Positions 1,573 to 20,956 of a DNA stretch of 64,000 bases are shown here, one piece after another; the stretch's first letter is position 1, and each line of letters opens with the position of its first letter. Under the pieces are notes generated by a model that saw nothing but the letters and a program-made list of their open reading frames with translations, was not told the DNA's origin and searched no databases. This DNA comes from Billgrantia sulfidoxydans. GTDB taxonomy: Bacteria > Pseudomonadota > Gammaproteobacteria > Pseudomonadales > Halomonadaceae. The DNA is taken from the NCBI RefSeq assembly GCF_017868775.1, contig NZ_CP053381.1, positions 3,472,001 to 3,536,000 of the forward strand, written 5' to 3'. Made by a program: the position numbers and the translations under genes.

Positions 1573-2502
1573 TCAGCACAGCTCCCTCAGCATGCCCAGG
1601 GCCACCCGCGGCCCCTCGTAGACCAGGGCATCGTGCACCTGGACCAGGGCCGCCCCCGCCTGCAGACGCGCCTCGGCATGCGCGGCGGTCGCGATGCCGC
1701 CCACCGAGACCAGCGACACACGCCCGGCGAGGCAGGCGTGCGCCTGCGCCACCTGGCGACAGGCGAGGCGCTGGCGCAGCGGGTCATGCCACGCCGCGTA
1801 GCGCTGTGGCGTTGCCGGCGGCCCGGCATCGCTGGCGAGAATCAGCCCATCGATACCCAGCACAGCGAGGTGCGCCACGATGGCGGGGAGCGGCGAATCG
1901 AGCGTGAGCCGCAGCTTGACGGCCAAGGGCAGGCAGCGACCGGCCTGTGCCGCCAGCCGATCGCGCCGCTCGACGAGCGCAGCCAGCAGGCTCTCCAACT
2001 CGCCTAGCCGTGGGGGCTGTGTCAGCGCGTGAGCCTGGGGACTCCCCAGGTTGATCACCGCATAGTCCGCCGCGTGCCAGGCGGCGGCGAGCCCGGCAAG
2101 ATAGGCCGGGGCCGCCTGCGCCAGGTCGCAGCGCGGCGGCAGGCCCAGGTTGAAGCCGATGACGAGGCGCGAGGCCTGGGGCGGCCGCGGCCCGAGGCTG
2201 AGCGCACTCGCCTGCCGTGGCGTCAGCGAGCCGAGCTCGAGGCAACCGAACCCCAGGGCCTGGGCCCGCCATCCCAGCCGCCCCCAACGGTCGAAGCCGG
2301 CGGCAATCCCCAGCGGATTGGCAAATCCCAGCCCCATGGCGTGCACCGTTGCCGGCGCACGCCTCCCGTCCGACCGTGCCGGCGAGGCGAGCCAGTGGGC
2401 GGCCAGCTGCGCACGGGCGTAGGCGACGCCACGCCCCAGGCGCGGCGCTTGCCGCATCAAGGCGGTCATGAGGCATCGCGACACGCCGGCGCTGCCAGGC
2501 AC
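1573..2502 (-). CDS. Dihydroorotate dehydrogenase-like flavoprotein, divergent paralogue
   Basis: The 309-residue protein follows the class 2 PyrD pattern: GIAAGFD at about 65-71, GSLTPR at 91-96, INLGSP at 150-155, AVKL at 194-197 and the FMN-phosphate loop SVGGI at 266-270. The candidate base serine before proline (Ser154) is kept. Compared with E. coli PyrD from memory, the segment holding Asn111 is shortened, Asn177 is Gln156 and Asn246 is Ser224. These are orotate contacts, so I infer that the substrate is not dihydroorotate. The frame starts at a GTG 5 bases after the SerC-like stop; an ATG at 2469 is an alternative start. It is the last gene of the pqqA-D-E-like operon and could supply a flavin oxidation step. 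Confidence 0.72.
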   Translation of the reverse strand: MPGSAGVSRCLMTALMRQAPRLGRGVAYARAQLAAHWLASPARSDGRRAPATVHAMGLGFANPLGIAAGFDRWGRLGWRAQALGFGCLELGSLTPRQASALSLGPRPPQASRLVIGFNLGLPPRCDLAQAAPAYLAGLAAAWHAADYAVINLGSPQAHALTQPPRLGELESLLAALVERRDRLAAQAGRCLPLAVKLRLTLDSPLPAIVAHLAVLGIDGLILASDAGPPATPQRYAAWHDPLRQRLACRQVAQAHACLAGRVSLVSVGGIATAAHAEARLQAGAALVQVHDALVYEGPRVALGMLRELC

Positions 2503-2507
2503 GACGA

Positions 2508-3617
2508 CTATCCGCAGCGCCTGCGCGACCGGCCATGGCGCGCGGCAAACGCCGCCATGAAGGCGATCAGCGCCTCGACCCCGGCTTCGGGCATGGCGTT
2601 GTAGAGGCTGGCACGCAGTCCGCCCACGGCGGCATGGCCCTGCAGGTTGAGCAGCCCCTGGCGGCGCGCCTGAGCGACGAACTCAGCAGTCAGCGACGGC
2701 ACGGCGAGGTGGAAGCAGACATTCATGCGCGAGCGGTCGGCGACCCGCTGCGCACAGGCGTAGAAGTCGCTGGCGTCGATGAAGGCATAGAGCGCCTCGC
2801 TCTTGCGCCGGTTGCGCGCGGCCATCGCGCCCAGGCCGCCCTGCGAGCGCAGCCAGCGAAAGACCAGCCCGGCCAGGTAGATCGCCTGGGTCGGCGGCGT
2901 ATTGAAGCGGTTGTCGCTGTCGACCTGGACGCGGTAGCTGAACGCGGTGGGGCACGCCGGCCAGGCCGCTCGCAACAGGTCATCGCGGATGATGACGAGG
3001 GTCAACCCGGCAGGGCCGATGTTCTTCTGGGCGCCGGCGTAGATCACGCCGAAGCGCTCGATGTCGAGCGGGCGGGAGAGGAAGTCGGAGGTCATGTCGG
3101 CGACCAGCGGTACGCCCCGCGTGTCGGGCAGGCGGTGGTAGGCCAGCCCGTCGGCGGTCTCGTTGCTGGTGATGTGGCAATACCCGGCCCCGGGGTCGAG
3201 ACGCCAATGCCGGCGGCACGGCAGCCGGCGGTAGCCGTACCGGGCACCGCTGGCGGCCACGTTGACCGGCACGTAGCGCCGGGCCTCGGCGATCGCCTTG
3301 CGCGACCAGTGGCCGCTGTCGACGTAGTCCGCCCGGCCATCCGGCGGCAGCAGGTTCATCGGCAGCAGCGAGAACTGGGTCGAGGCCCCGCCCGGCAGGA
3401 ACAGCACCCGGTAGTTCGGCGGCAGGCCGACCAGTTCGCGCAGGTCGCGCCGCGCCTGATCCGCGATGTCCTGGAACGCCTCCCCCGTGAACGGCATCTC
3501 GAGGATCGACATGCCGCTGCGGCGGCAGTCGAGCAGCTCCCGCTGGGCCTCCAGCAGCACCTCCTGCGGCATGACACCGGGGCCCGCGGCAAAGTTGTAG
3601 ACCGCCGAGGCGTGCAT
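2508..3617 (-). CDS. SerC-like PLP aminotransferase with altered substrate pocket
   Basis: The 369-residue protein aligns along its full length with phosphoserine aminotransferase: N-terminal YNFAAGPGVMP, PLP lysine Lys198 in AGAQKNIGPAG, FNTPPT at 238-243, SRMNV at 296-300 and VGGLRAS at 331-337. The residues that bind the substrate phosphate in E. coli SerC are changed: His41 is Phe43, Arg42 is Thr44, Arg77 is Ser79 and Arg329 is Ala329. The alpha-carboxylate arginine (Arg335) is kept. I infer a PLP transaminase acting on a substrate without phosphate. It starts 10 bases after the PuuD-like gene and ends 5 bases before the flavoprotein gene, inside the pqqADE-like operon. Housekeeping serine synthesis is the less likely alternative. 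Confidence 0.82.
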   Translation of the reverse strand: MHASAVYNFAAGPGVMPQEVLLEAQRELLDCRRSGMSILEMPFTGEAFQDIADQARRDLRELVGLPPNYRVLFLPGGASTQFSLLPMNLLPPDGRADYVDSGHWSRKAIAEARRYVPVNVAASGARYGYRRLPCRRHWRLDPGAGYCHITSNETADGLAYHRLPDTRGVPLVADMTSDFLSRPLDIERFGVIYAGAQKNIGPAGLTLVIIRDDLLRAAWPACPTAFSYRVQVDSDNRFNTPPTQAIYLAGLVFRWLRSQGGLGAMAARNRRKSEALYAFIDASDFYACAQRVADRSRMNVCFHLAVPSLTAEFVAQARRQGLLNLQGHAAVGGLRASLYNAMPEAGVEALIAFMAAFAARHGRSRRRCG

Positions 3618-3627
3618 CGCGGTGCGC

Positions 3628-4131
3628 CTAGAAGAGCTGCAGGCCGTGACCGCTGGCCAGCATCAGGAACAGCAGCGGTATCGACAGGATGGTATTGGTC
3701 CGTGACGACAGGAAGGTGATGCGCGAGCAGCGCACCCGCTCCTCCATCGGCGCGGGTACGAAGCCGAGCACCTTCTTCTGGTGCGGCCAGAGCACCAGCC
3801 ACAGGTTGAGCAGCATCAGCGTGCCGATCCAGGCGCCCATGCCGATCACCGCCAGCGGCCCCTGCAGCAGCAGCGCGTCCGGCAGCCAGCCGCGCTGCCA
3901 CAGCATGGCCATGCCGGACGCCCAGACCACGATCGAAGCGTAGCGAAAGGTGCCGTGCTCGCGCTGCATCCGCGCCTCGAGATCGGCGCTGCGCGACGGC
4001 TCGTCGCGCTGCCCGCCGAGCGGCATGAAGGTCGGTTGCTTCACGACGTTGGCGTAGTTGTGCCCGATCCAGACCAGGGCGAACAGCAGGTGCGACCAGC
4101 GCAGCAGCAGGTCGAGGAACGAGGCGATCAT
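3628..4131 (-). CDS. PuuD-like integral membrane protein
   Basis: The protein has 167 residues with about four transmembrane segments: near 5-25 (RWSHLLFALVWIGHNY), 65-80, 92-113 (WIGTLMLLNLWLVLWPHQKK) and the C-terminal 20 residues. The WSH...WIG and LNLWLVLWPHQK patterns recall the membrane part of urate-hydroxylase PuuD/DUF989 proteins, which are far longer and carry a C-terminal cytochrome c. That domain is absent here. His14, His24 and His59 are possible heme or quinone ligands, which is speculative. TAGGAG lies just upstream of the ATG. The gene sits between the 30-residue peptide and the SerC-like gene, so a membrane redox partner of the pqqADE-like pathway is plausible. The function is not known. 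Confidence 0.6.
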   Translation of the reverse strand: MIASFLDLLLRWSHLLFALVWIGHNYANVVKQPTFMPLGGQRDEPSRSADLEARMQREHGTFRYASIVVWASGMAMLWQRGWLPDALLLQGPLAVIGMGAWIGTLMLLNLWLVLWPHQKKVLGFVPAPMEERVRCSRITFLSSRTNTILSIPLLFLMLASGHGLQLF

Positions 4132-4177
4132 GGCGGACTCCTATTCCGTTGAGGCGTCACACAGGGACGCGAAGGGC

Positions 4178-4270
4178 CTAGACCAGCATGCGCAGCCAAA
4201 GATAGAGCACGGCCGTCAGGGCGATGCCGGCCGACAGAGTCCCGGCCAGCGAGTCATGGGGCAGCCTCAT
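4178..4270 (-). CDS. 30-residue single-span membrane peptide
   Basis: This is a short frame, MRLPHDSLAGTLSAG followed by IALTAVLYLWLRMLV and a TAG stop. Its ATG overlaps the pqqE-paralogue TGA as ATGA, the usual sign of translational coupling. A strong GGAGGAGAG ribosome site lies a few bases before the ATG, within the end of pqqE. The last 18 or so residues form one hydrophobic helix ended by an arginine. The next gene, a PuuD-like membrane protein, begins 46 bases later. A small accessory subunit of that membrane protein is the natural guess. I recognise no family. Confidence 0.6.
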   Translation of the reverse strand: MRLPHDSLAGTLSAGIALTAVLYLWLRMLV

Positions 4271-5406
4271 GCGCCTCTCCTCCCGGAGGCCAGGCCGCCC
4301 TGCCGGGCGATGAGTTCGCCCCGTCCACCCACTGCCTGCGACTGGGCGATGGCCTGCTGGATCACGCCATGATGCGGCGACTTGCTGCAGGCCGGGTCCG
4401 CGTTGGCGGCGTCGCCGGTGAGCAGCAGCGCCTGGCAGCGGCAGCCGCCGAAGTCGCGCTCGCGCTCGTCGCAGCTACGGCAGGGCTCCTTCATCCACTC
4501 GTCGCCCCGGTACTTGCGGAAGGTGGGCGATTCCCGCCACAGCCATTCGAGGCTGTGCTCGCGCACGGTCGGGAACGCTAGCGTCTCCAGGGTGCGCGCC
4601 TGCGAGCAGGGCAGCGCCGCCCCGTCCGGGGCGATGGTCAGGTGGATCGAGCCCCAGCCGTTCATGCACGCCTTGGGACGGCCTTCGTAGTAGTCGGGGA
4701 TGACGAAGAAGATGGTCATCGAGCCCCCCAGCCGGCGGCGCGCCTTGGCGACCTCGGCCTCGGCCCAGGCCAGCTCCTCGCGAGTGGGCAGCAGGCGGTC
4801 GCGGTTGAGCAGCGCCCAGTTGTAGTACTGGACGTTGGCCAGCTCCAGGTACTCCATGCCCAGCGAGCTGGCCAGCTCGATGATCTCGGGAATCTGGGCG
4901 ATGTTGTGGCGGGTGATCGGTACGTTGAGCACCATGGGAAAACCGTGGGCCTTTATCTCGCGCGCCATGGCCAGCTTGCGATCGAAGCTGTTCACCCCCG
5001 CGAGCCAGTTCGCCGTCTGCCGGTCGCTGGACTGAAAGCCCAATTGGATATGCTTGAGCCCCGCCTCCTTCAGCGCTGCCAGGCGGCGTGAGGTCAAGCC
5101 GATGCCCGAGGTGATCAGGTTGGTGTAGTAACCCAGGTCGTTGGCCTCGGCCACCAGCGCCTCCAGGTCCTTGCGCAGCGTCGGCTCGCCACCGGAGAAA
5201 CCGATCTGCATCGCCCCCAGATCGCGGGCCTCACGCATCACCCGCTTCCACTCGGCGGTGCTCAGCTCCTCCTCGCCGTAGCGCTCGAAATCCACCGGAT
5301 TGCTGCAGAAAACGCACTTGAGCGGGCAACGATAGGTGAGTTCCAGCAAGACCCAGATGGGCTTGCCCTCACCGTCGAGGCTCGGCACGGATCCAACCCT
5401 TGTCAT
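4267..5406 (-). CDS. pqqE: PqqE-type radical SAM/SPASM peptide cyclase, second copy
   Basis: The 379-residue protein has the radical-SAM motif CPLKCVFC (Cys27, Cys31, Cys34), GFSGGEP as the SAM glycine motif, and a C-terminal SPASM region with clustered cysteines (CRSCDERERDFGGCRC). PqqE forms the carbon-carbon bond between the Glu and Tyr side chains of PqqA held by PqqD. The start at 5406 (MTRVGSV) overlaps the pqqD paralogue by 38 bases, and no further upstream start fits the family length. It ends in an ATGA overlap with the 30-residue peptide gene. It is a clear paralogue of the pqqE at 17632-18783, with the same LELTYRCPL core and TNLITSG motif, but is encoded away from any pqqB or pqqC. 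Confidence 0.9.
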   Translation of the reverse strand: MTRVGSVPSLDGEGKPIWVLLELTYRCPLKCVFCSNPVDFERYGEEELSTAEWKRVMREARDLGAMQIGFSGGEPTLRKDLEALVAEANDLGYYTNLITSGIGLTSRRLAALKEAGLKHIQLGFQSSDRQTANWLAGVNSFDRKLAMAREIKAHGFPMVLNVPITRHNIAQIPEIIELASSLGMEYLELANVQYYNWALLNRDRLLPTREELAWAEAEVAKARRRLGGSMTIFFVIPDYYEGRPKACMNGWGSIHLTIAPDGAALPCSQARTLETLAFPTVREHSLEWLWRESPTFRKYRGDEWMKEPCRSCDERERDFGGCRCQALLLTGDAANADPACSKSPHHGVIQQAIAQSQAVGGRGELIARQGGLASGRRGA

Positions 5407-5668
5407 GGGCCACCTCCAGAAACTTGACGACGCCCTCGGCAACGGTATCGCGCTTGGCGTCGTAGCATGTGGCGAGCGCATCGATCATCGCCGTCACGGT
5501 GGTATCGCCGTCGCAATGCGCGAGGATACGACCACCGGTCTCGTTCAGCTTGACGATGCCTTCGGGGTAAAGCAGGACGTGGGCATCCTGGGACGCTTCC
5601 CAGCGAAAGAGGAACGTCGGGTGGATCGAATAGCAAGCCGCCATGTCGATGCTCGATTGGTCAGTCAT
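5369..5668 (-). CDS. pqqD: PqqD-like peptide chaperone, second copy
   Basis: The protein is 99 residues, close to the usual PqqD length of about 90. It shows the family pattern [19 protein letters not shown] at 19-37 followed by LNETGGRIL and a C-terminal helix ending GWIRAEP. PqqD is a winged-helix RiPP recognition element that presents the PqqA peptide to PqqE. The gene follows the pqqA paralogue after a 90-base gap containing a stem-loop and overlaps pqqE by 38 bases. The matching DNA segment in the complete operon is 18776-19051, and the two proteins share HVLLYPEG and LN.(T/S)(G/A)G.IL. It probably partners the adjacent pqqA and pqqE copies rather than those of the complete operon. Confidence 0.9.
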   Translation of the reverse strand: MTDQSSIDMAACYSIHPTFLFRWEASQDAHVLLYPEGIVKLNETGGRILAHCDGDTTVTAMIDALATCYDAKRDTVAEGVVKFLEVAHDKGWIRAEPRR

Positions 5669-5722
5669 CGTCTCCTCCCCTGCCCTTTGCTCTTGCGGAC
5701 CTGCCCGTTTCGTCTCAGAAAA

Positions 5723-5748
5723 GCGGGAGTGGCGCCTGCCATTCCCGC
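5723..5748 (-). terminator. Stem-loop attenuator between the pqqA and pqqD paralogues
   Basis: An 11-bp inverted repeat, GCGGGAGTGGC (5723-5733) against GCCATTCCCGC (5738-5748), has one G-T wobble and a 4-base loop. Read on the minus strand the hairpin is followed by TTTT (5719-5722). It starts 11 bases after the pqqA-like stop. A weak intrinsic terminator here would give more precursor message than enzyme message, as expected for a peptide consumed one molecule per product. Confidence 0.6.
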
Positions 5749-5758
5749 CCGGTCTCGA

Positions 5759-5833
5759 TCAGCGAACGTAGACGTAGGCCGTCACTTCGAAGCCCAGACG
5801 CAAGTCGCAGAATGCCGGATCAACCCATTGCAT
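5759..5833 (-). CDS. pqqA: PqqA-like precursor peptide, second copy
   Basis: The 24-residue frame has the PqqA core [11 protein letters not shown], with the Glu-x3-Tyr pair at Glu16 and Tyr20 that PqqE cross-links. It is followed by VYVR, which adds a second tyrosine at Tyr22, and the leader carries Cys9 where the other copy has Arg. The copy at 20885-20956 has [10 protein letters not shown] and ends IANR. A GGGAGG ribosome site precedes the ATG. The gene is first in the minus-strand operon. The divergent leader and tail next to dedicated pqqD and pqqE copies suggest a matched precursor. It could still simply make PQQ using pqqB and pqqC in trans. Confidence 0.85.
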   Translation of the reverse strand: MQWVDPAFCDLRLGFEVTAYVYVR

Positions 5834-6110
5834 GGCGCACCTCCCATGATGCGATTCGTTGTCTGCAACGACAGTGTTGCCTTATCGAGGCTAGGCGGGT
5901 CGCCGCGCCCCTGGAATGGCACTTTGGCCGCGTCCCGTTACTCCTTTCGTACTGATTTTGAACTAGTTTTTGTGAAATCACGGCGCTACGCAGGGTAATT
6001 GACCCCACTCAAGGAAGCTTGGCTTGGCACTTGCCTGCCGGCGTTTTCGGGCGGCAACGGCGCACGCACGGGGGGCAGCGAGGGGGAACCGTCACCCGGC
6101 GGCACGCGGG
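5834..6110. promoter_or_regulatory. Intergenic region upstream of the pqqA paralogue
   Basis: This 277-base stretch lies between the pqqA-like gene and the ABC ATPase stop, both on the minus strand. I find no gene. The part around 5940-5985 is noticeably less GC-rich than its surroundings and is the likely promoter zone for the pqqA-like operon, but I cannot assign convincing -35 and -10 boxes. The remainder (6000-6110) is GC-rich, with no clear terminator for the ABC operon. Confidence 0.4.
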
Positions 6111-6779
6111 TCAGAGGGGGTCGGCCAGGCGCGACAGGGTCTGCACCACCGCGGCCCGATCGCTGTCCTGCGCGAGCCGCTCGTCCCAGCGCAGCTGCGC
6201 CGGCCGACCGTCGAGATACCAGACCCGGTTGGCCAGGCGCGCCGCATCCTGCGCGTCGTGGGTCACGCAGATCATCGCCATCTGCGGGTGCTGCTCCAGC
6301 AGCGCGCCGAGACATGCGCGCAGCGCCTGCGCCCGGCGCGAATCGAGCGAGGCGAAGGGCTCGTCGAGCAGCAGCAGGTCGGGCTCGACGGCCAGGCAGC
6401 GTGCCAGCGCCGCCCGGCGCGCCATGCCCAGCGACAGCTGGTCGGGCAGGTCGTCGCCGTGGCCGGCCAGGTCGACCCGGGCCAGCAGCGTGTCGACGTC
6501 CTCCGGGGCGGCGCCGACCAGGAGCAGGTTCTGACGCAGCGTGCGCCACGGCAGCAGTCGGTGCTCCTGGAACAGGTAGCCGATTCGCAGCGCGGCCTCG
6601 CGCGTCACGCCGCCACCCGAGGAGGGAGCATCCAGGCCGGCGATGAGGTTGAGCAACGTGGTCTTGCCGCTGCCCGAGGGACCCAGCAGGCAGATGCGGT
6701 CACCCGCGGCGACACGCAGGGAGAGACGGCCGAGAATCGTCCGAGGCGTGCCGTGGCGGGTGACGTCCAGCTCAAGCAT
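6111..6779 (-). CDS. ABC transporter ATPase, nitrate/taurine family
   Basis: The 222-residue nucleotide-binding subunit has Walker A GPSGSGKTT at about 34-42, a Q-loop (GYLFQEHRLLPW), the signature helix (LSLGMARRAALARCLA), Walker B LLLLDEPF and the switch histidine in CVTHDAQDAARLA. This is the layout of SsuB/TauB/NrtD-type importers. It is the third gene of a minus-strand operon: binding protein, permease (overlapping GTGA), ATPase (8-base overlap). It energises uptake of a small, probably anionic or aromatic, solute that cannot be named from sequence. Confidence 0.92.
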   Translation of the reverse strand: MLELDVTRHGTPRTILGRLSLRVAAGDRICLLGPSGSGKTTLLNLIAGLDAPSSGGGVTREAALRIGYLFQEHRLLPWRTLRQNLLLVGAAPEDVDTLLARVDLAGHGDDLPDQLSLGMARRAALARCLAVEPDLLLLDEPFASLDSRRAQALRACLGALLEQHPQMAMICVTHDAQDAARLANRVWYLDGRPAQLRWDERLAQDSDRAAVVQTLSRLADPL

Positions 6780-7536
6780 GGCGCGCTCCCCCGACCCGGC
6801 GCCAGCGCGTGGCGCGGCGCTCCAGCGGGCGCAGCACGCCGCGTTCGGCCAGCTGCACCACGGTGATGAAGGCCAGGCTGTAGGCCAGGAGGGTGGCCAC
6901 GTCGAAGAGCTGGAAGGCCATGTGCAGCTGGAAGCCGACCCCGTCGGAGCGCCCCAGCAGCTCGACCACCAGCACGATCTTCCACACCAGCGCCAGGCCG
7001 CTGCGGGCCGCTGCCATCAGGTAGGGGGCCAGCTGCGGCAGCCACACGTGAACCAGGCGCCTGGCGCGGCCGAAACGGTAGACGTCGGCCATCTGCTCGA
7101 GGCGCTCGTCGAGGCTGCGTGCGCCCTCGCGCACCGTGACCGCCACGTTGGGTACCTTGTTGATCACCACCGCCAGCACCGCAGCGGCCTCGACCAGGCC
7201 GAACCACACATAGAGCAGGATGATGGTGACCAGGGCGGGCAGGTTGAGCAGCGCCACCAGCAGCGGGTCGAGCAGATCGTCGACGAGCCGACTGCGCCCC
7301 ATCCAGACCCCCAGCAGCGTGCCCAGGGCCATCGCCAGCAGGAAGCTGATCGCCACCCGGCGCAGCGTTACCGCCAGGTGATGCCAGAGTTCGCCCGCCT
7401 GCTGCGCCTGCCACAGCGTCTCGAACACCACCCCCGGTGTGGGCAGCAGCGCGCTGTCCAGCAGGCCGGCGACCAGCCACCAGACGAGCAGCAGCGCCGG
7501 CAGGCCGACCCAGCCGGCCAGGGCGCGCACGCTCAC
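6772..7536 (-). CDS. ABC transporter permease, nitrate/taurine family
   Basis: The protein has 254 residues and about six transmembrane helices, with the BPD_transp_1 EAA-like loop near VYRFGRARRLVHVWLPQLAPYLMAAARSGLALVWK. The frame is open much further upstream, but the GTG at 7536 overlaps the binding-protein stop as GTGA and gives a normal SsuC-type length, so I place the start there. It forms the inner-membrane channel with the ATPase at 6111-6779 and receives substrate from the product of 7533-8549. Confidence 0.88.
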   Translation of the reverse strand: MSVRALAGWVGLPALLLVWWLVAGLLDSALLPTPGVVFETLWQAQQAGELWHHLAVTLRRVAISFLLAMALGTLLGVWMGRSRLVDDLLDPLLVALLNLPALVTIILLYVWFGLVEAAAVLAVVINKVPNVAVTVREGARSLDERLEQMADVYRFGRARRLVHVWLPQLAPYLMAAARSGLALVWKIVLVVELLGRSDGVGFQLHMAFQLFDVATLLAYSLAFITVVQLAERGVLRPLERRATRWRRVGGARHA

Positions 7537-8549
7537 GGCGGCTCCGTTCGAGCCGCGTGGCGGTAGAAGAGCCGGGGCGGCAACAGGCGCTCGGCATCGG
7601 CGCCGGCCAGCCGCAGCAGCGCCTGGAGGTCGGCGATGCGCCGCTCGTCGAGCGGCGCGGGCACGCCGCCGAGGAAGCCTTGGCGAAACGCCTCGAACTC
7701 GGCGTCGCTTGCCACGCGCATCAGCGGTCGCAGCGCGTCCCAGTGGGACTGGCTGCCTGCCAGCGAGCGCTTGGTCGCGTCCAGCGCGGCGGCGAAGCGA
7801 TCCAGCAGCGCGCGGTTCTCGCGGGCCCAGCCCTCGTGGAACACGTAGCCCAGCACCGGCAGGTCGCGCTCGAGCGCCAGGGCGTCGAGCAGGTCCGCCA
7901 TCTGCAGCAGCCGGCGCCCCTCGCCCGCCGCCTCGAGCCGTGCGGCGAAGTGCCAGTAGGTCACCAGCGCATCGATCCGGCCGCGGCGCAGCGCCTCGCT
8001 GAGCAGCGGCGGCGCGGCGTACTGCACCTCGGCCTCGCGCTCCAGGTCGAGGCCGCGCTCGGCCGCGACCCGGCGCAGCAGGATCCAGCCCTTGCTGTCG
8101 GGCCCGCCGGCCACGCCGATGCGCTTGCCGCGCAGGTCGTCGAGCGAGGCGATATCGGCATCCGGGGCCACCATGATGTCGCCGATCTGTGCGGAGAACG
8201 GCAGGAACAGATAGGGTTCGCCCTGTTCGAAGCGCGCCTGGACCCACAGCAGGTCGGCCACGGCGCCGGCCACCTCGCCGCTGGCCAGCGCGATGCGCGA
8301 CGCCGGCAGGTGCGGCACCAGGCGTACCTCGAGCGCGAATCCCGCCTGGCGATCCAGCCCCAGGCGGCGCATGTGCTCCAGCTCCCAGTGGGCGGTGCCC
8401 GACTGCAGCACGCTGAGCCGCAGCGGGGGCGGCTCCCCGGCGTGCGCGAGCGGCAGGCACAGGCCCAGCCCGAGCCCGAACACGAGCAAGATGCGACTGA
8501 GGGCATGGCACAGCGCGAGTGGCCATGAGGCGTGAGTGCGTATCGTCAT
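7533..8549 (-). CDS. Periplasmic substrate-binding protein of the ABC importer
   Basis: The protein is 338 residues from the ATG at 8549, chosen because it opens a signal peptide (hydrophobic stretch to about residue 36, cleavage near AHA-GEP). The mature part has the SsuA/NMT1-like pattern: LRLSVLQSGTAHWELEHM, then LASGEVAGAVADLLWVQA, then DDLRGKRIGVAGGPDSKGWILLR. Such proteins bind sulfonates, nitrate, pyrimidine precursors or similar solutes. The divergent LuxR regulator at 8770 and the palindromes at 8588-8623 suggest the operon belongs to the local PQQ/alcohol-related regulon. Its ligand is unknown. Confidence 0.85.
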   Translation of the reverse strand: MTIRTHASWPLALCHALSRILLVFGLGLGLCLPLAHAGEPPPLRLSVLQSGTAHWELEHMRRLGLDRQAGFALEVRLVPHLPASRIALASGEVAGAVADLLWVQARFEQGEPYLFLPFSAQIGDIMVAPDADIASLDDLRGKRIGVAGGPDSKGWILLRRVAAERGLDLEREAEVQYAAPPLLSEALRRGRIDALVTYWHFAARLEAAGEGRRLLQMADLLDALALERDLPVLGYVFHEGWARENRALLDRFAAALDATKRSLAGSQSHWDALRPLMRVASDAEFEAFRQGFLGGVPAPLDERRIADLQALLRLAGADAERLLPPRLFYRHAARTEPP

Positions 8550-8587
8550 GCCTGCACGATACGAAGGGCGCGGCGGCCTCAGAATAG

Positions 8588-8623
8588 TACCTTGGTACCT
8601 GCCACGTTGAGACAATGGTGGCA
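8588..8623. promoter_or_regulatory. Palindromes in the ABC importer/response-regulator divergent region
   Basis: TACCTTGGTA (8588-8597) is followed two bases later by TGCCAC (8600-8605) and then its inverted partner GTGGCA (8618-8623). Almost the same combination occurs at 13221-13267 upstream of nosP. NarL/LuxR-type regulators often recognise short TAC-rich inverted repeats, so this is a candidate operator for the regulator at 8770. Evidence is pattern only. Confidence 0.45.
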
Positions 8624-8769
8624 TTCCCTGCGGCGTGATACCTATCGTTCAATGAACGCAACATGACCCGTCGAGGTGCATCCCTGGCATTCGGATCCGA
8701 GAATGACGGACCGTGACGAGCGGCCTGGCGCCTGTATACCATTACAACGACAACCTTCGGGGCCTGCCC

Positions 8770-17631: not shown

Positions 17632-18783
17632 TCACCGGCGGCAGAACACCCGTGACTCGTGCACGTTGCGCGGGGTCAGGCCGGTAACGGAGCGCTCGCC
17701 GGCCTCGGCCTGATGGCGGGCGGCCTCGATCAGGTGGTGCTCCGGCGACAGCGAACAGACCGGGTCGGTGGCGGCGGCGTCACCGGTGAGCAGGTAGGCC
17801 TGGCAGCGGCAGCCGCCGACGTCCCGGTGGCGCTCGTCGCAGCGGCGGCACGGCTCGCGCATCCAGCCATCGCCGCGGTAGCGGTTGAAGGCCTCGCTGT
17901 CGTACCAGATCTCGCGCAGCGGCCGCTCGCGCACGTTGGGAAAGGTCATCGGCAGTATCCGTGCGCTGTGGCACGGCAGCACCGCGCCGTCGGGCACCAC
18001 GGTCATGAAGATCGCCCCCCAGCCGCCCATGCACGCCTTGGGACGGTCGTTGTAGTAGTCGGGCACCACGAACAGCAGGCGCATGTCGCGCCCCTGCGCC
18101 GCCAGCCGCTCGCGCCAGCGCGCGGTGGTGGCCTCGGCCGTTTCGAGCTGCTCGCGGCTCGGCAGCAGCCCCTCGCGATTGAGCTGCGCCCAGCCGTACA
18201 TCTGGCAGTTGGCCAGCTCCACGGCGTCGGCACCCAGCTCGTCGCACAGGGCGATGATGGCGTCGAGCTCGTCGATGTTGTGACGATGCAGCACCACGTT
18301 GAGCACCATCGGGTAACCGGCGGCCTTGACCGCGCGGGCCATGGCGAGTTTCCTGGCGTGGGCCTTGGGCGAGCCGGCCACCGCCGCGGCGACGTCCGGG
18401 TCGGAGGCCTGCAGGCTGATCTGGATATGGTCAAGGCCGGCCGCGTGCAGCGCCGCGATGCGCGCCTCGTCGAGCCCCAGCCCGGAGGTGATCAGGTTGG
18501 TATAGAAGCCGAGCCGGCGCGCCTCGGCGACCAGGGTCTCGAGGTCCTGGCGCACCAGCGGCTCGCCGCCGGAGAAGCCCATCTGCACCGCGCCCATGGC
18601 GCGGGCCTGGGCCAGCACGTCCAGCCACTCCTCGGTGGCGAGCTCCTCCTTCACCGCGGCGAAGTCGAGCGGATTGGAGCAGTAGGCGCACTGCAGCGGG
18701 CAGCGGTAGGTCAGCTCGGCGAGCAGCCACAGCGGGGCGCCGGTGGCACCGTTGACGGCAGCGGTGTGAGTACGGTCAGTCAT
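17632..18783 (-). CDS. pqqE: PqqE, radical SAM PqqA peptide cyclase
   Basis: The 383-residue protein has the radical-SAM motif [18 protein letters not shown] and the C-terminal SPASM cysteines ([16 protein letters not shown], then CSLSPEHH). It cross-links Glu and Tyr of PqqA as the first step of pyrroloquinoline quinone synthesis. The start at [10 protein letters not shown] overlaps pqqD by 8 bases. It is the last gene of the complete pqqABCDE operon. A 20-30 residue tail after the SPASM region ([10 protein letters not shown]...) differs from the second pqqE copy. Confidence 0.95.
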
Positions 18784-19051
18784 ATTCGATCCAGCCCTGC
18801 CGCAAGGCCTCGTCGAAGAACTCGATGACGTCCTGAGCGAGCTCACCGCCTGCCCCCTCGGGGTAGCGACGGCTGAGCTCGTCGATCACCTCGGCGATAT
18901 CGCGCTCACCGTCGACCAGTGAGAGAATCGCGCCGGCGCTGTCGTTGAGCTGCACCATGCCCTCGGGATAGAGCAGCACGTGGCGGCCCTGGGCCGCTTC
19001 CCACTGCAGGCGCCAGCCGCGGCGAAGCGCCGGCACCGAGCAGGCGTTCAT
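18776..19051 (-). CDS. pqqD: PqqD, PqqA-binding chaperone
   Basis: The 91-residue protein has the PqqD pattern [27 protein letters not shown] and a C-terminal helix ending RQGWIEYD. It binds PqqA and delivers it to PqqE. The frame is open far upstream, but the ATG at 19051 overlaps the pqqC stop as ATGA and gives the normal family length. It overlaps pqqE by 8 bases, so the three genes are translationally coupled. Confidence 0.93.
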
Positions 19052-19815
19052 GCCACCCCCCGATGGAACACGGCCCGATCGGTCACGCTGTGGTAGGGCG
19101 GGCGCCCGAGCTGGTAGGCCAGGGTCATGGCGTCGAGCATGCTCCACAGCACATCGAGCTTGAACTGCAGGATCTCCAGGGCGCGCTGCTGGGCGGCGGC
19201 GGTGGTGCACACCGCCAGCGCCACCTCGAGGCCATGGTCGACGTCGCGTCGGGCCTCCTTGAGGCGCTTGCGGAAGTAGCCGTAGCCGGCCTCGTCGATC
19301 CAGGGGTAGTGACCCGGCCAGGTGTCGAGCCGGCTCTGGTGCGCCTGGGGGGCGAACAGCTCGGTCAGCGACGAGATCGCCGCCTCCTGCCAGCTCGCCC
19401 GGCGCACGAAGTTGACGTAGGCGTCGACGGCGAAGCGCACGCCGGGCAGCACGTGCTCCTGGGCCCACAGTTCATCGCGGGTCAGCCCGACCGCCTCGCC
19501 CAGGGTCAGCCATGCCTCGATGCCGCCGGCGTCGTCATCGCGACCGTCGTGGTCGAGCAGGCGCTGGATCCAGCGGCGGCGGGTGGCGGCATCGGGGCAG
19601 TTGGCCAGCAGCGCGGCATCCTTCTGCGGGATCATCACCTGGTAGTAGAAGCGGTTGGCGACCCAGCCGCGGATCTGCTCCGGCGTGGCGCGCCCCTCGG
19701 CCATGTCGACCTGGTAGGGGTGATGGATATGGTAGTAGGCCCCCTTGGCCAGCAGGGCCTGGCGGAAAGCCTCGGGCGTCAGCGCAGCGGCGGTCGGTGT
19801 TTCAACGATGTTCAT
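19048..19815 (-). CDS. pqqC: PqqC, final oxidase of PQQ synthesis
   Basis: The 255-residue protein is all-helical and cofactor-free, with the conserved [12 protein letters not shown] near the N-terminus, [20 protein letters not shown], and [28 protein letters not shown]. PqqC carries out the last ring closure and eight-electron oxidation to PQQ. The length is typical (about 250). It follows pqqB after 70 bases and is joined to pqqD by an ATGA overlap. It is the only pqqC in the window; the pqqADE-like operon has none. Confidence 0.95.
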
Positions 19816-19885
19816 GGCGAGCCCCTATGTGTACTGGCTTGTTGTTATCTTCAGTTCAGCGGCGCGACGACGATGCTCCTGGCCG

Positions 19886-20815
19886 CTACAGGGTGAGCTG
19901 CATGCCGTCGTGGGCGACCTCGATGCCGTGCCGGTCGAGCACGGCGCGCTCGGCCGAGGTTTCGTCCAGGATCGGGTTGGTGTTGTTGATATGAATAAGG
20001 ATGCGCCGCGTCGTCTCGGGCAGTGCGTCGAGCTCGGCGATCATGCCGCCCTCCCCGGCCAGGGCCAGATGCCCCATCTCGCGCCCGGTGGCGTCGGTGA
20101 TGCCCAGACGCGCCATCTCGTCGTCGTGCCACAGGGTGCCATCCACCAGCACGCAGTCGGCCTCGGCCATCAGCGCCCGCGCCGCGTCGCTCGGCTCTCC
20201 CAGGCCGGGCGCGTAGAAGAGCGCGCCGCCCGTCAGCCTGTCGTGGAACAGCAGCCCCAGGTTGTCGCCGGTCGCCGGCGAACCGCGGCGGGGAGAGTAA
20301 GGTGGCGCATTGGAGCTCAGCGAGAGTGCAGTGATCTCGAGTTCGGGGCAGCTCGGCACCCGGAAGGTGCAACGCTCGCATGCGTCCGCCAGCGGAATCT
20401 CGCGCCAGGCGAGCCCACCGTTCCAGTGGCGCAGCATGGGAAACAGCGGGAAGCCGCTGGAAAGGTCATCATGCACGCGAGGCGTGCACCAGACGTCGAA
20501 GGGGCACCCTTCGCGCAGCGACAGCAGGCCGCTGACGTGATCGATCTGGGCATCCACGAGCAGCACCTCGGCGATGCCGCTGTCACGCAGGCCACGGGTC
20601 GGCCAGAGCGCCGGATGGGCGTTGAGCTGGGCGCGGATATCGGGCGAGGCGTTGCACAACAGCCAGCGCTCGCCGTCCATGCTGACGGCGATGGAGGATT
20701 GGGTCCTGGGGCTCAGGCCGACGCGCCCCTGGCGCACCCCACGGCAGTTGTCACAGTTGCAGTTCCATTGCGGAAAACCGCCGCCGGCAGCCGAGCCGAG
20801 TATGAGCACCTGCAT
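19886..20815 (-). CDS. pqqB: PqqB, metallo-beta-lactamase-fold PQQ synthesis enzyme
   Basis: The 309-residue protein starts [21 protein letters not shown] and carries the zinc-type CNCxNC cluster plus the metallo-beta-lactamase core in [15 protein letters not shown] and HINNTNPIL. PqqB is thought to hydroxylate the cross-linked tyrosine intermediate or help release product; its role is still debated. It starts 70 bases after pqqA, with a strong stem-loop in between (20834-20857), so it is probably expressed less than the precursor gene. Confidence 0.95.
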
Positions 20816-20833
20816 GGCGACTCCCCCCGAATC

Positions 20834-20857
20834 GAACGGGGCCGTACGGCCCCGTTC
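20834..20857 (-). terminator. Perfect 10-bp hairpin between pqqA and pqqB
   Basis: GAACGGGGCC (20834-20843) pairs perfectly with GGCCCCGTTC (20848-20857) around a GTAC loop. It lies 28 bases after the pqqA stop and 19 bases before pqqB. No U-run follows on the minus strand, so it is more likely a processing or stability hairpin, or a leaky terminator, that protects a short pqqA message. This fits the abundant pqqA transcript known in other PQQ producers. Confidence 0.6.
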
Positions 20858-20884
20858 ATGAATGGCACGGTTCGGATAGTCCGA

Positions 20885-20956
20885 TCAGCGGTTGGCGATG
20901 TAGAGGGTGACCTCGAAACCGAGGCGCAGGTCACGAAAGCTGGGCTTGGTCCACAT
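20885..20956 (-). CDS. pqqA: PqqA, PQQ precursor peptide
   Basis: The 23-residue peptide contains the canonical core [11 protein letters not shown] with Glu15 and Tyr19, the residues joined to make PQQ, and ends IANR. A ribosome site AGGAGAG lies before the ATG. It heads the complete pqqABCDE operon on the minus strand. Length and sequence are standard, unlike the second copy at 5759-5833. Confidence 0.95.

Follow-up and report, generated by a model that had tools for sequence, protein, structure and literature searches.

An operon of Billgrantia sulfidoxydans that probably encodes an oxygen-independent branch of pyrroloquinoline quinone biosynthesis

Introduction

The last steps of ordinary pyrroloquinoline quinone (PQQ) biosynthesis depend on O2 (PMC12423496, PMC12997753), and Klebsiella and Pseudomonas aeruginosa, which carry ordinary pqq genes only, produce no PQQ anaerobically (as cited in PMC12423496). 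Another gene set, pqqAED-puuD-serC-pyrD, was described in Hyphomicrobium denitrificans (Mol Microbiol 2025; PMC12423496, section 2.9), an organism that grows on methanol with nitrate and whose methanol dehydrogenase requires PQQ. According to that article, transcripts of the second pqqA/D/E copies, of denitrification genes and of anaerobic ubiquinone genes were much lower in two repressor mutants of this species. The same set was reported in further denitrifiers (Halomonas sulfidovorans MCCC 1A13718, S. stutzeri, Methylophaga and Azoarcus), and it was called "tempting to speculate" that the cluster encodes an O2-free end of PQQ synthesis. Incomplete secondary pqq operons are mentioned in an article of 2026 on the ped cluster, which describes several PQQ steps as strictly O2-dependent (PMC12997753). 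Here we analyse an operon with the same gene set in Billgrantia sulfidoxydans, located in a stretch of 64,000 nucleotides (contig NZ_CP053381.1, positions 3,472,001 to 3,536,000; hereafter the window), whose host carries NosZ (1067.6 bits; the sole denitrification gene sought).

Comparison with its relatives suggests that this operon is probably a branch of PQQ biosynthesis that needs no O2 and serves anaerobic, mostly denitrifying growth. The same comparison supports a front end and an end product shared with the ordinary pathway, and anaerobic control. The idea of such an operon is already in print; the present evidence appears to strengthen it considerably and to make a new end product unlikely. 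Section 2.9 of PMC12423496 presents transcripts and a few examples, and the new support consists of FNR-type boxes, ubiUVT and nrdD neighbours, co-occurrence with pqqC and nosZ, and gene-loss cases. The box, the tree, the gene-loss cases and the active-site analysis are this study's.

Organization and conservation of the operon

The operon occupies the minus strand between positions 5833 and 1573 of the window and comprises seven co-directional frames, all confirmed, in the order pqqA2-pqqD2-pqqE2-p30-memX-serCx-pyrDx. The precursor peptide gene pqqA2 (5759..5833) encodes 24 residues including Glu16 and Tyr20 (PF08042, 39.0 bits, cut-off 21.1), pqqD2 (5369..5668) a peptide chaperone of 99 residues (TIGR03859, 86.8 bits, cut-off 46), and pqqE2 (4267..5481) a radical S-adenosylmethionine/SPASM PqqE of 404 residues as listed (TIGR02109, 516.2 bits, cut-off 381.35). 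These are followed by p30 (4178..4270), a hydrophobic 30-residue peptide that matches no family and is probably a single membrane helix, and by memX (3628..4131), which encodes a membrane protein of 167 residues with four long helices, resembling half of the PuuD membrane domain (PF06181, 51.2 bits, cut-off 26.9). The last two genes are serCx (2508..3617), encoding a SerC-like pyridoxal phosphate (PLP) enzyme of 369 residues (NF003764, 473.7 bits, cut-off 253), and pyrDx (1573..2502), encoding a class-2 PyrD-like flavin mononucleotide (FMN) protein of 309 residues (PF01180, 65.6 bits, cut-off 27). Both fall below the cut-offs of the more specific models, SerCx scoring 433.3 against 443.6 bits for TIGR01364 and PyrDx 118.7 against 200 bits for class-2 PyrD TIGR01036. 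Intergenic gaps measure 90, 46, 10 and 5 nt. There is a 4-nt overlap between p30 and pqqE2 and, in the frames as listed, one of 113 nt between pqqD2 and pqqE2; the start of pqqE2 probably lies further inside than the listed frame.

An ordinary pqqABCDE operon, used here for comparison, is located separately on the minus strand (17632..20956). The two operons share the Glu-x3-Tyr core of PqqA, and PqqD2 and PqqE2 exceed their family cut-offs as the ordinary proteins do. The new operon differs by carrying MemX, SerCx and PyrDx in place of pqqB and pqqC, which are absent from its seven genes according to frames and family models, by its own PqqE clade, and by an FNR-type box in many relatives. 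Frames and family models agree with the first-pass annotation of this DNA on the seven co-directional genes and their families, on the Glu-Tyr core of the precursor and on the separate, complete pqqABCDE operon.

A MemX query drew 115 relatives from 84,980 species genomes, and the locus counts below refer to the best 80 of these 115. Of the 80 loci, 72 have the six genes with recognisable families in the same order, and p30 was called in 58. Seven of the eight exceptions have genes missing because of a contig end, a split onto a further contig (L110) or gene calling, and the eighth, Paramagnetospirillum (L105), has a different gene order. By class, 55 loci are gammaproteobacterial, 20 betaproteobacterial, 2 alphaproteobacterial and 3 unassigned. 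Given the kept gene order, the association is not chance, and the earlier expectations that the arrangement occurs in other genomes and that other enzymes stand in place of PqqB and PqqC are borne out. The operon is uncommon in even draws of the family and class: MemX of at least 92% identity was found in 2 of 151 genomes of the host's family (its own included; 8 others gave weak matches), and of at least 61% identity in 5 of 369 genomes of the class (again including its own), with weaker relatives in 129 others. MemX may derive from the widespread, unnamed membrane protein represented by these weaker relatives. Distant MemX relatives (42-46%) were observed at L053, L054, L055 and L057; a p30-like peptide stands beside them in L053 and L055, and argD-argF-like genes (by eye) in L053, L054 and L057.

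The precursor and PqqE also form types of their own. The motif GFEVTAY is present in all 74 called PqqA2 (none was called in 6 of the 80 loci), and the tail reads GFEVTAYVYVR in most, versus GFE[VI]T[ML]Y... in ordinary PqqA. A tree was calculated from 89 PqqE, namely 47 ordinary and 42 auxiliary copies (41 of 79 picked for spread, one of them, L110, mostly gaps, plus that of the window). One branch divides the two sets with a Shimodaira-Hasegawa-like approximate likelihood ratio (SH-aLRT) support of 95, so the tree proposed in the first-pass annotation as a check places the new copies in a separate clade. A modification at Cys9 of PqqA2 was weighed and discarded, because this cysteine is missing from some PqqA2 and is present at that position in some ordinary PqqA (e.g., L169).

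Gene-loss cases bearing on the product

Genome-wide counts cover 50 genomes of the 80 loci, mainly omitting near-copies, and closer checks cover 9 of these 50. PqqC was identified in 46 of the 50 carriers, so the operon usually accompanies ordinary PQQ genes. PQQ-family alcohol dehydrogenases were found in 49, above cut-off in 47, and match the ordinary family TIGR03075. The first-pass annotation had concluded from the presence of ordinary PQQ genes that the additional set is not needed for ordinary PQQ, which overlooks the O2 requirement of the ordinary last steps as described in PMC12423496 and PMC12997753.

In a few carriers the new-type proteins seem to be the only usable front end. The ordinary PqqA of Billgrantia campisalis (L191, 12185-12382) ends in GFEVTLIANR and has lost its tyrosine; pqqB and pqqC are intact, no pqqD or pqqE follows pqqC at the ordinary locus (pqqD was sought at that locus only), and a genome-wide search gave PqqE2 as the only PqqE. 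In Motiliproteus MSK22-1 and in each of two Sedimenticola strains there are a single new-type PqqA, one PqqE, one PQQ-family alcohol dehydrogenase, and one PqqB and one PqqC above cut-offs. The genes pqqB, pqqC and pqqD follow pyrDx in Motiliproteus, pqqB and pqqC are ahead of pqqA2 in Sedimenticola SB48, and SN1189 has them on a separate contig, at its end. Paramagnetospirillum likewise has one new-type PqqA, one PqqE, and one PqqB and PqqC above cut-offs. Because these four lineages keep PqqB and PqqC with PqqA2 and PqqE2 as the only usable copies found, cross-linked PqqA2 appears to be accepted by ordinary PqqB and PqqC on the way to PQQ.

The complementary situation was observed in the metagenome-assembled genomes (MAGs) G541 and G542, in which PqqA and PqqE are of the new type only and PQQ dehydrogenases are encoded about 7-10 kb from the operon. 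A genome-wide search found neither PqqB nor PqqC in these two MAGs; in G541, A2 and D2 lie on a contig apart from the rest of the operon. Taken together, the kept PqqB/PqqC cases and the dehydrogenases of G541 and G542 favour one product with two finishing routes. Halomonas heilongjiangensis was not counted as a single-PqqE case, since its two PqqC matches end at contig ends, and the MAG of L094 (2.2 Mb) and Methylophaga OBS4 (L127, whose contig stops before PqqE) were not counted as PqqC-less cases, since they look incomplete.

Upstream boxes and anaerobic neighbours

The region within 300 bp upstream of pqqA2 was scored for the FNR-type consensus TTGATN4ATCAA (out of 10) in 74 loci. A box of 10/10 was found in 20, of 9/10 in 13 and of 8/10 in 14 of the 74, versus a single box of at least 9/10 among 54 ordinary pqqA upstreams, a set that counts some operons twice and leaves out L148 and L155 (Fisher p 7.6e-9, with rows that are not independent). 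The background frequency of boxes of at least 9/10 was 0.9% in mononucleotide shuffles, 1.3% in a first-order model and 2.0% of 4440 random stretches of the same loci, which may overlap pqqA2 upstreams. By genus groups formed from organism names, 16 of 33 have a box of at least 9/10. The window's own FNR/ANR/DNR-like box, TTGACCCCACTCAA (5999..6012, strand not assigned), is centred 172 bp upstream of pqqA2 and scores 8/10, a value reached or passed by about 13% of shuffles; three Billgrantia/Halomonas relatives have 9/10 boxes at a similar distance, 176-178 bp upstream. These boxes support, by comparison, a putative anaerobic control of the operon. Where PqqA2 must also feed PqqB and PqqC, the scores are 6-7/10 in Motiliproteus MSK22-1, the two Sedimenticola and Paramagnetospirillum, and 9/10 in B. 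campisalis. The argument that PqqA2-dependent genomes lack the box was dropped in view of B. campisalis and of a two-PqqE Motiliproteus (L069) with 6/10.

Several loci adjoin genes of anaerobic metabolism. UbiT-, UbiV- and UbiU-like genes flank 13, 10 and 9 of the 80 loci, and UbiD- and UbiX-like genes 6 and 5, all being counts without a matched control; the Ubi names were checked on L103 and, for UbiT, L095. The anaerobic ribonucleotide reductase NrdD adjoins the operon in L051. The UbiUVT pathway of anaerobic ubiquinone synthesis is likewise an O2-independent stand-in for O2-using hydroxylases, and its proteins are unrelated to those of the operon.

Co-occurrence with denitrification was surveyed in the family of G312 (248 genomes), with a MemX match of E 1e-40 or better taken as the marker of the operon. 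The operon is carried by 33 genomes: 32 of the 79 with both PqqC and NosZ, 1 of the 110 with PqqC only, and none of the 16 with NosZ only or of the 43 with neither. Among PqqC carriers the association with NosZ gives a Fisher p of 1.9e-13, a value inflated by the concentration of the carriers in a single genus (30 of 33). The operon is missing in 47 of the 79 genomes with pqqC and nosZ and is therefore not required for denitrification as such.

Active sites of SerCx, PyrDx and MemX

SerCx is a whole-length homologue of the phosphoserine aminotransferase SerC, in which K198, H328 and R335 are invariant among 27 aligned members. It differs by P-F-T or a similar sequence where SerC has S-H-R (in all three printed SerC alignments). 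Phenylalanine replaces the histidine in 52 of the 53 frames, out of 79, in which the pattern was readable, the remaining 26 being judged by eye. We take K198 to bind PLP, R335 the substrate carboxylate and the His-Arg pair of SerC the phosphate; on these assumed roles, SerCx keeps the PLP lysine and the carboxylate arginine and has lost the His-Arg of the phosphate site. Arginine 77 of SerC is not counted as a further difference, being absent from the SerC of 4xk1 as well.

The AlphaFold2 model of PyrDx (predicted local distance difference test, pLDDT, 93.6) was matched by Foldseek to E. coli PyrD (7t5k, E 2.2e-18, query TM-score 0.73). PyrDx shares the fold and FMN site of class-2 dihydroorotate dehydrogenase, keeping what we assume to be the FMN-site lysine and glycines, and differs in the orotate site, where the presumed orotate-binding loops of the E. 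coli enzyme are deleted or altered. The window PyrDx has a serine at the place of the PyrD catalytic serine, which is not conserved across the PyrDx family. Several members lack the N-terminal helices, and members are 26-58% identical to the window copy.

The AlphaFold2 model of MemX (pLDDT 87.3) consists of four long helices, and H14, H24, E58, H59, R63, R144 and H162 are invariant among 38 aligned members, all of which reach E 1 or better with the model of the PuuD membrane domain. PuuD, a cytochrome c urate oxidase, is thought to oxidise urate by passing electrons to cytochrome c, and an alternative is also discussed (PMC4562309). MemX shares its Urate_ox_N domain; PuuD has eight helices and a cytochrome c domain, whereas MemX has four and no cytochrome c domain. 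MemX gave no match among PDB sequences. Its comparison with the heme-binding HemJ/CopD-type four-helix fold returned mixed helical bundles only, with HemJ itself outside the comparison, and function was not read from fold matches, helical bundles being unspecific.

Proposed route and alternative explanations

In the proposed route, which would start like the ordinary one, PqqE2 with PqqD2 would form the cross-link between Glu16 and Tyr20 of PqqA2, and a peptidase encoded elsewhere would release the joined Glu-Tyr pair. MemX with p30, SerCx and PyrDx would then complete PQQ instead of the hydroxylase PqqB and the O2-using oxidase PqqC. MemX, being PuuD-like, would most likely oxidise and hydroxylate the ring with oxygen from water, passing electrons to the respiratory chain; PyrDx would dehydrogenate the nitrogen ring on FMN, replacing PqqC, and SerCx would use PLP to act on an amino-acid end of the intermediate. 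We give about even chances to a chemistry after the cross-link that differs in this general way, with water oxygens introduced by a PuuD-like enzyme, a SerC-derived PLP step and a PyrD-derived flavoprotein in place of PqqC. The precise division of labour, with MemX as an O2-free hydroxylase/dehydrogenase for PqqB, PyrDx for PqqC and SerCx for the PLP step, is drawn from enzyme comparisons and is less likely than not to hold in every detail, and water as the oxygen source is inferred only.

The first-pass annotation had instead predicted a different small molecule, in which PqqE2 joins Glu to Tyr and the PLP and flavin enzymes yield a peptide-derived cofactor or metabolite other than PQQ. The own PqqA type with its distinct tail, the own PqqE clade, the altered substrate sites of SerCx and PyrDx, and the fact that the operon usually comes in addition to ordinary PQQ genes would all suit such a product. 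However, the genomes in which PqqA2 and PqqE2 stand alone either keep PqqB and PqqC, for which the new type is the only usable source found (B. campisalis, Motiliproteus, Sedimenticola and Paramagnetospirillum), or have PQQ dehydrogenases without them. Moreover, PQQ-family alcohol dehydrogenases accompany nearly all carriers, and the flanks of the operon have no single extra gene in common, their largest cluster being present in 19 of the 80 loci. The prediction is thus not supported, and we regard a different product as unlikely. A modified PQQ, for instance aminated or partly oxidised, that is made anaerobically and works in the same dehydrogenases appears somewhat less likely still: a SerC-like PLP enzyme is easier to reconcile with an amination or deamination than with plain PQQ, and G541 and G542 have dehydrogenases with no PqqB or PqqC found, but the dehydrogenases of the carriers match the ordinary family. 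Least probable of all is that the additional pqqA, pqqD and pqqE copies serve dosage, with MemX, SerCx and PyrDx as unrelated passengers. PqqA2, PqqD2 and PqqE2 alone seem sufficient to feed PqqB and PqqC in B. campisalis, and Paramagnetospirillum retains these three with MemX; yet the gene order is conserved across three classes and the SerCx and PyrDx sites are altered consistently.

An O2-independent PQQ branch, which we prefer, also has points that weigh against it. The PLP enzyme fits no obvious step of known PQQ chemistry, the Foldseek search with MemX gave no significant fold match, and our literature search found no experimental test of an O2-independent PQQ operon. Bacteria can import PQQ from outside, including under anoxic conditions (PMC12997753), and this, together with the gaps in the MAGs G541 and G542, weakens the case of dehydrogenases without PqqB and PqqC. 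Paramagnetospirillum has MemX and no adjacent serCx or pyrDx. As to anaerobic control, the window's box is weak on its own, most Stutzerimonas loci reach just 7/10, counter to a uniform rule, and B. campisalis keeps its 9/10 box although PqqA2 seems its sole usable precursor. As to denitrification, the G312-family carriers come largely from one genus, the carrier G811 lacks nosZ, and many genomes with pqqC and nosZ do without the operon. If an O2-independent branch is nevertheless what the operon encodes, it would explain the PQQ supply of H. denitrificans on methanol with nitrate, add another O2-independent quinone pathway to UbiUVT, and show new chemistry built on three house-keeping folds.

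Other pqq genes and flanking regions

A PqqE2 query against the B. sulfidoxydans genome returned three strong PqqE and five weak matches. A second ordinary pqq operon (L056, 7382-13253) was identified at 4.03 Mb of the 4.49-Mb chromosome and is followed by a gene resembling the PqqF peptidase (by eye). In other genomes, pqqB and pqqC adjoin the new-type operon in L073 and L125. Methylotenera mobilis 13 (G536, the genome of L103) has twelve above-cut-off PqqA matches spread over the chromosome. The alphaproteobacterial MAG G565 (L155, L179, L186) has three PqqC and two ordinary-type PqqE besides an auxiliary PqqE, and its PqqB and PqqC are just 37-40% identical to those of the window.

An Rfam scan of window positions 1-22000 gave nothing above gathering scores. 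Directly upstream of pqqA2 and in the same direction, ABC transporter genes and an NMT1/THI5-like binding protein were observed (6111-8624, minus strand), and a similar ATPase occupies the upstream position in L048 (by eye). Tail to tail with the operon, a gene at 3-1496 on the plus strand, which extends left of the window, encodes a NosR-like iron-sulfur membrane protein (489 bits, under the NosR cut-off of 1000) that may act as an electron partner of PQQ enzymes. A NosR-like gene also stands beside the operon in L111 (528 bits), with L122 and L125 sharing its flank cluster, and beside the ordinary pqqA in L191 (by eye).

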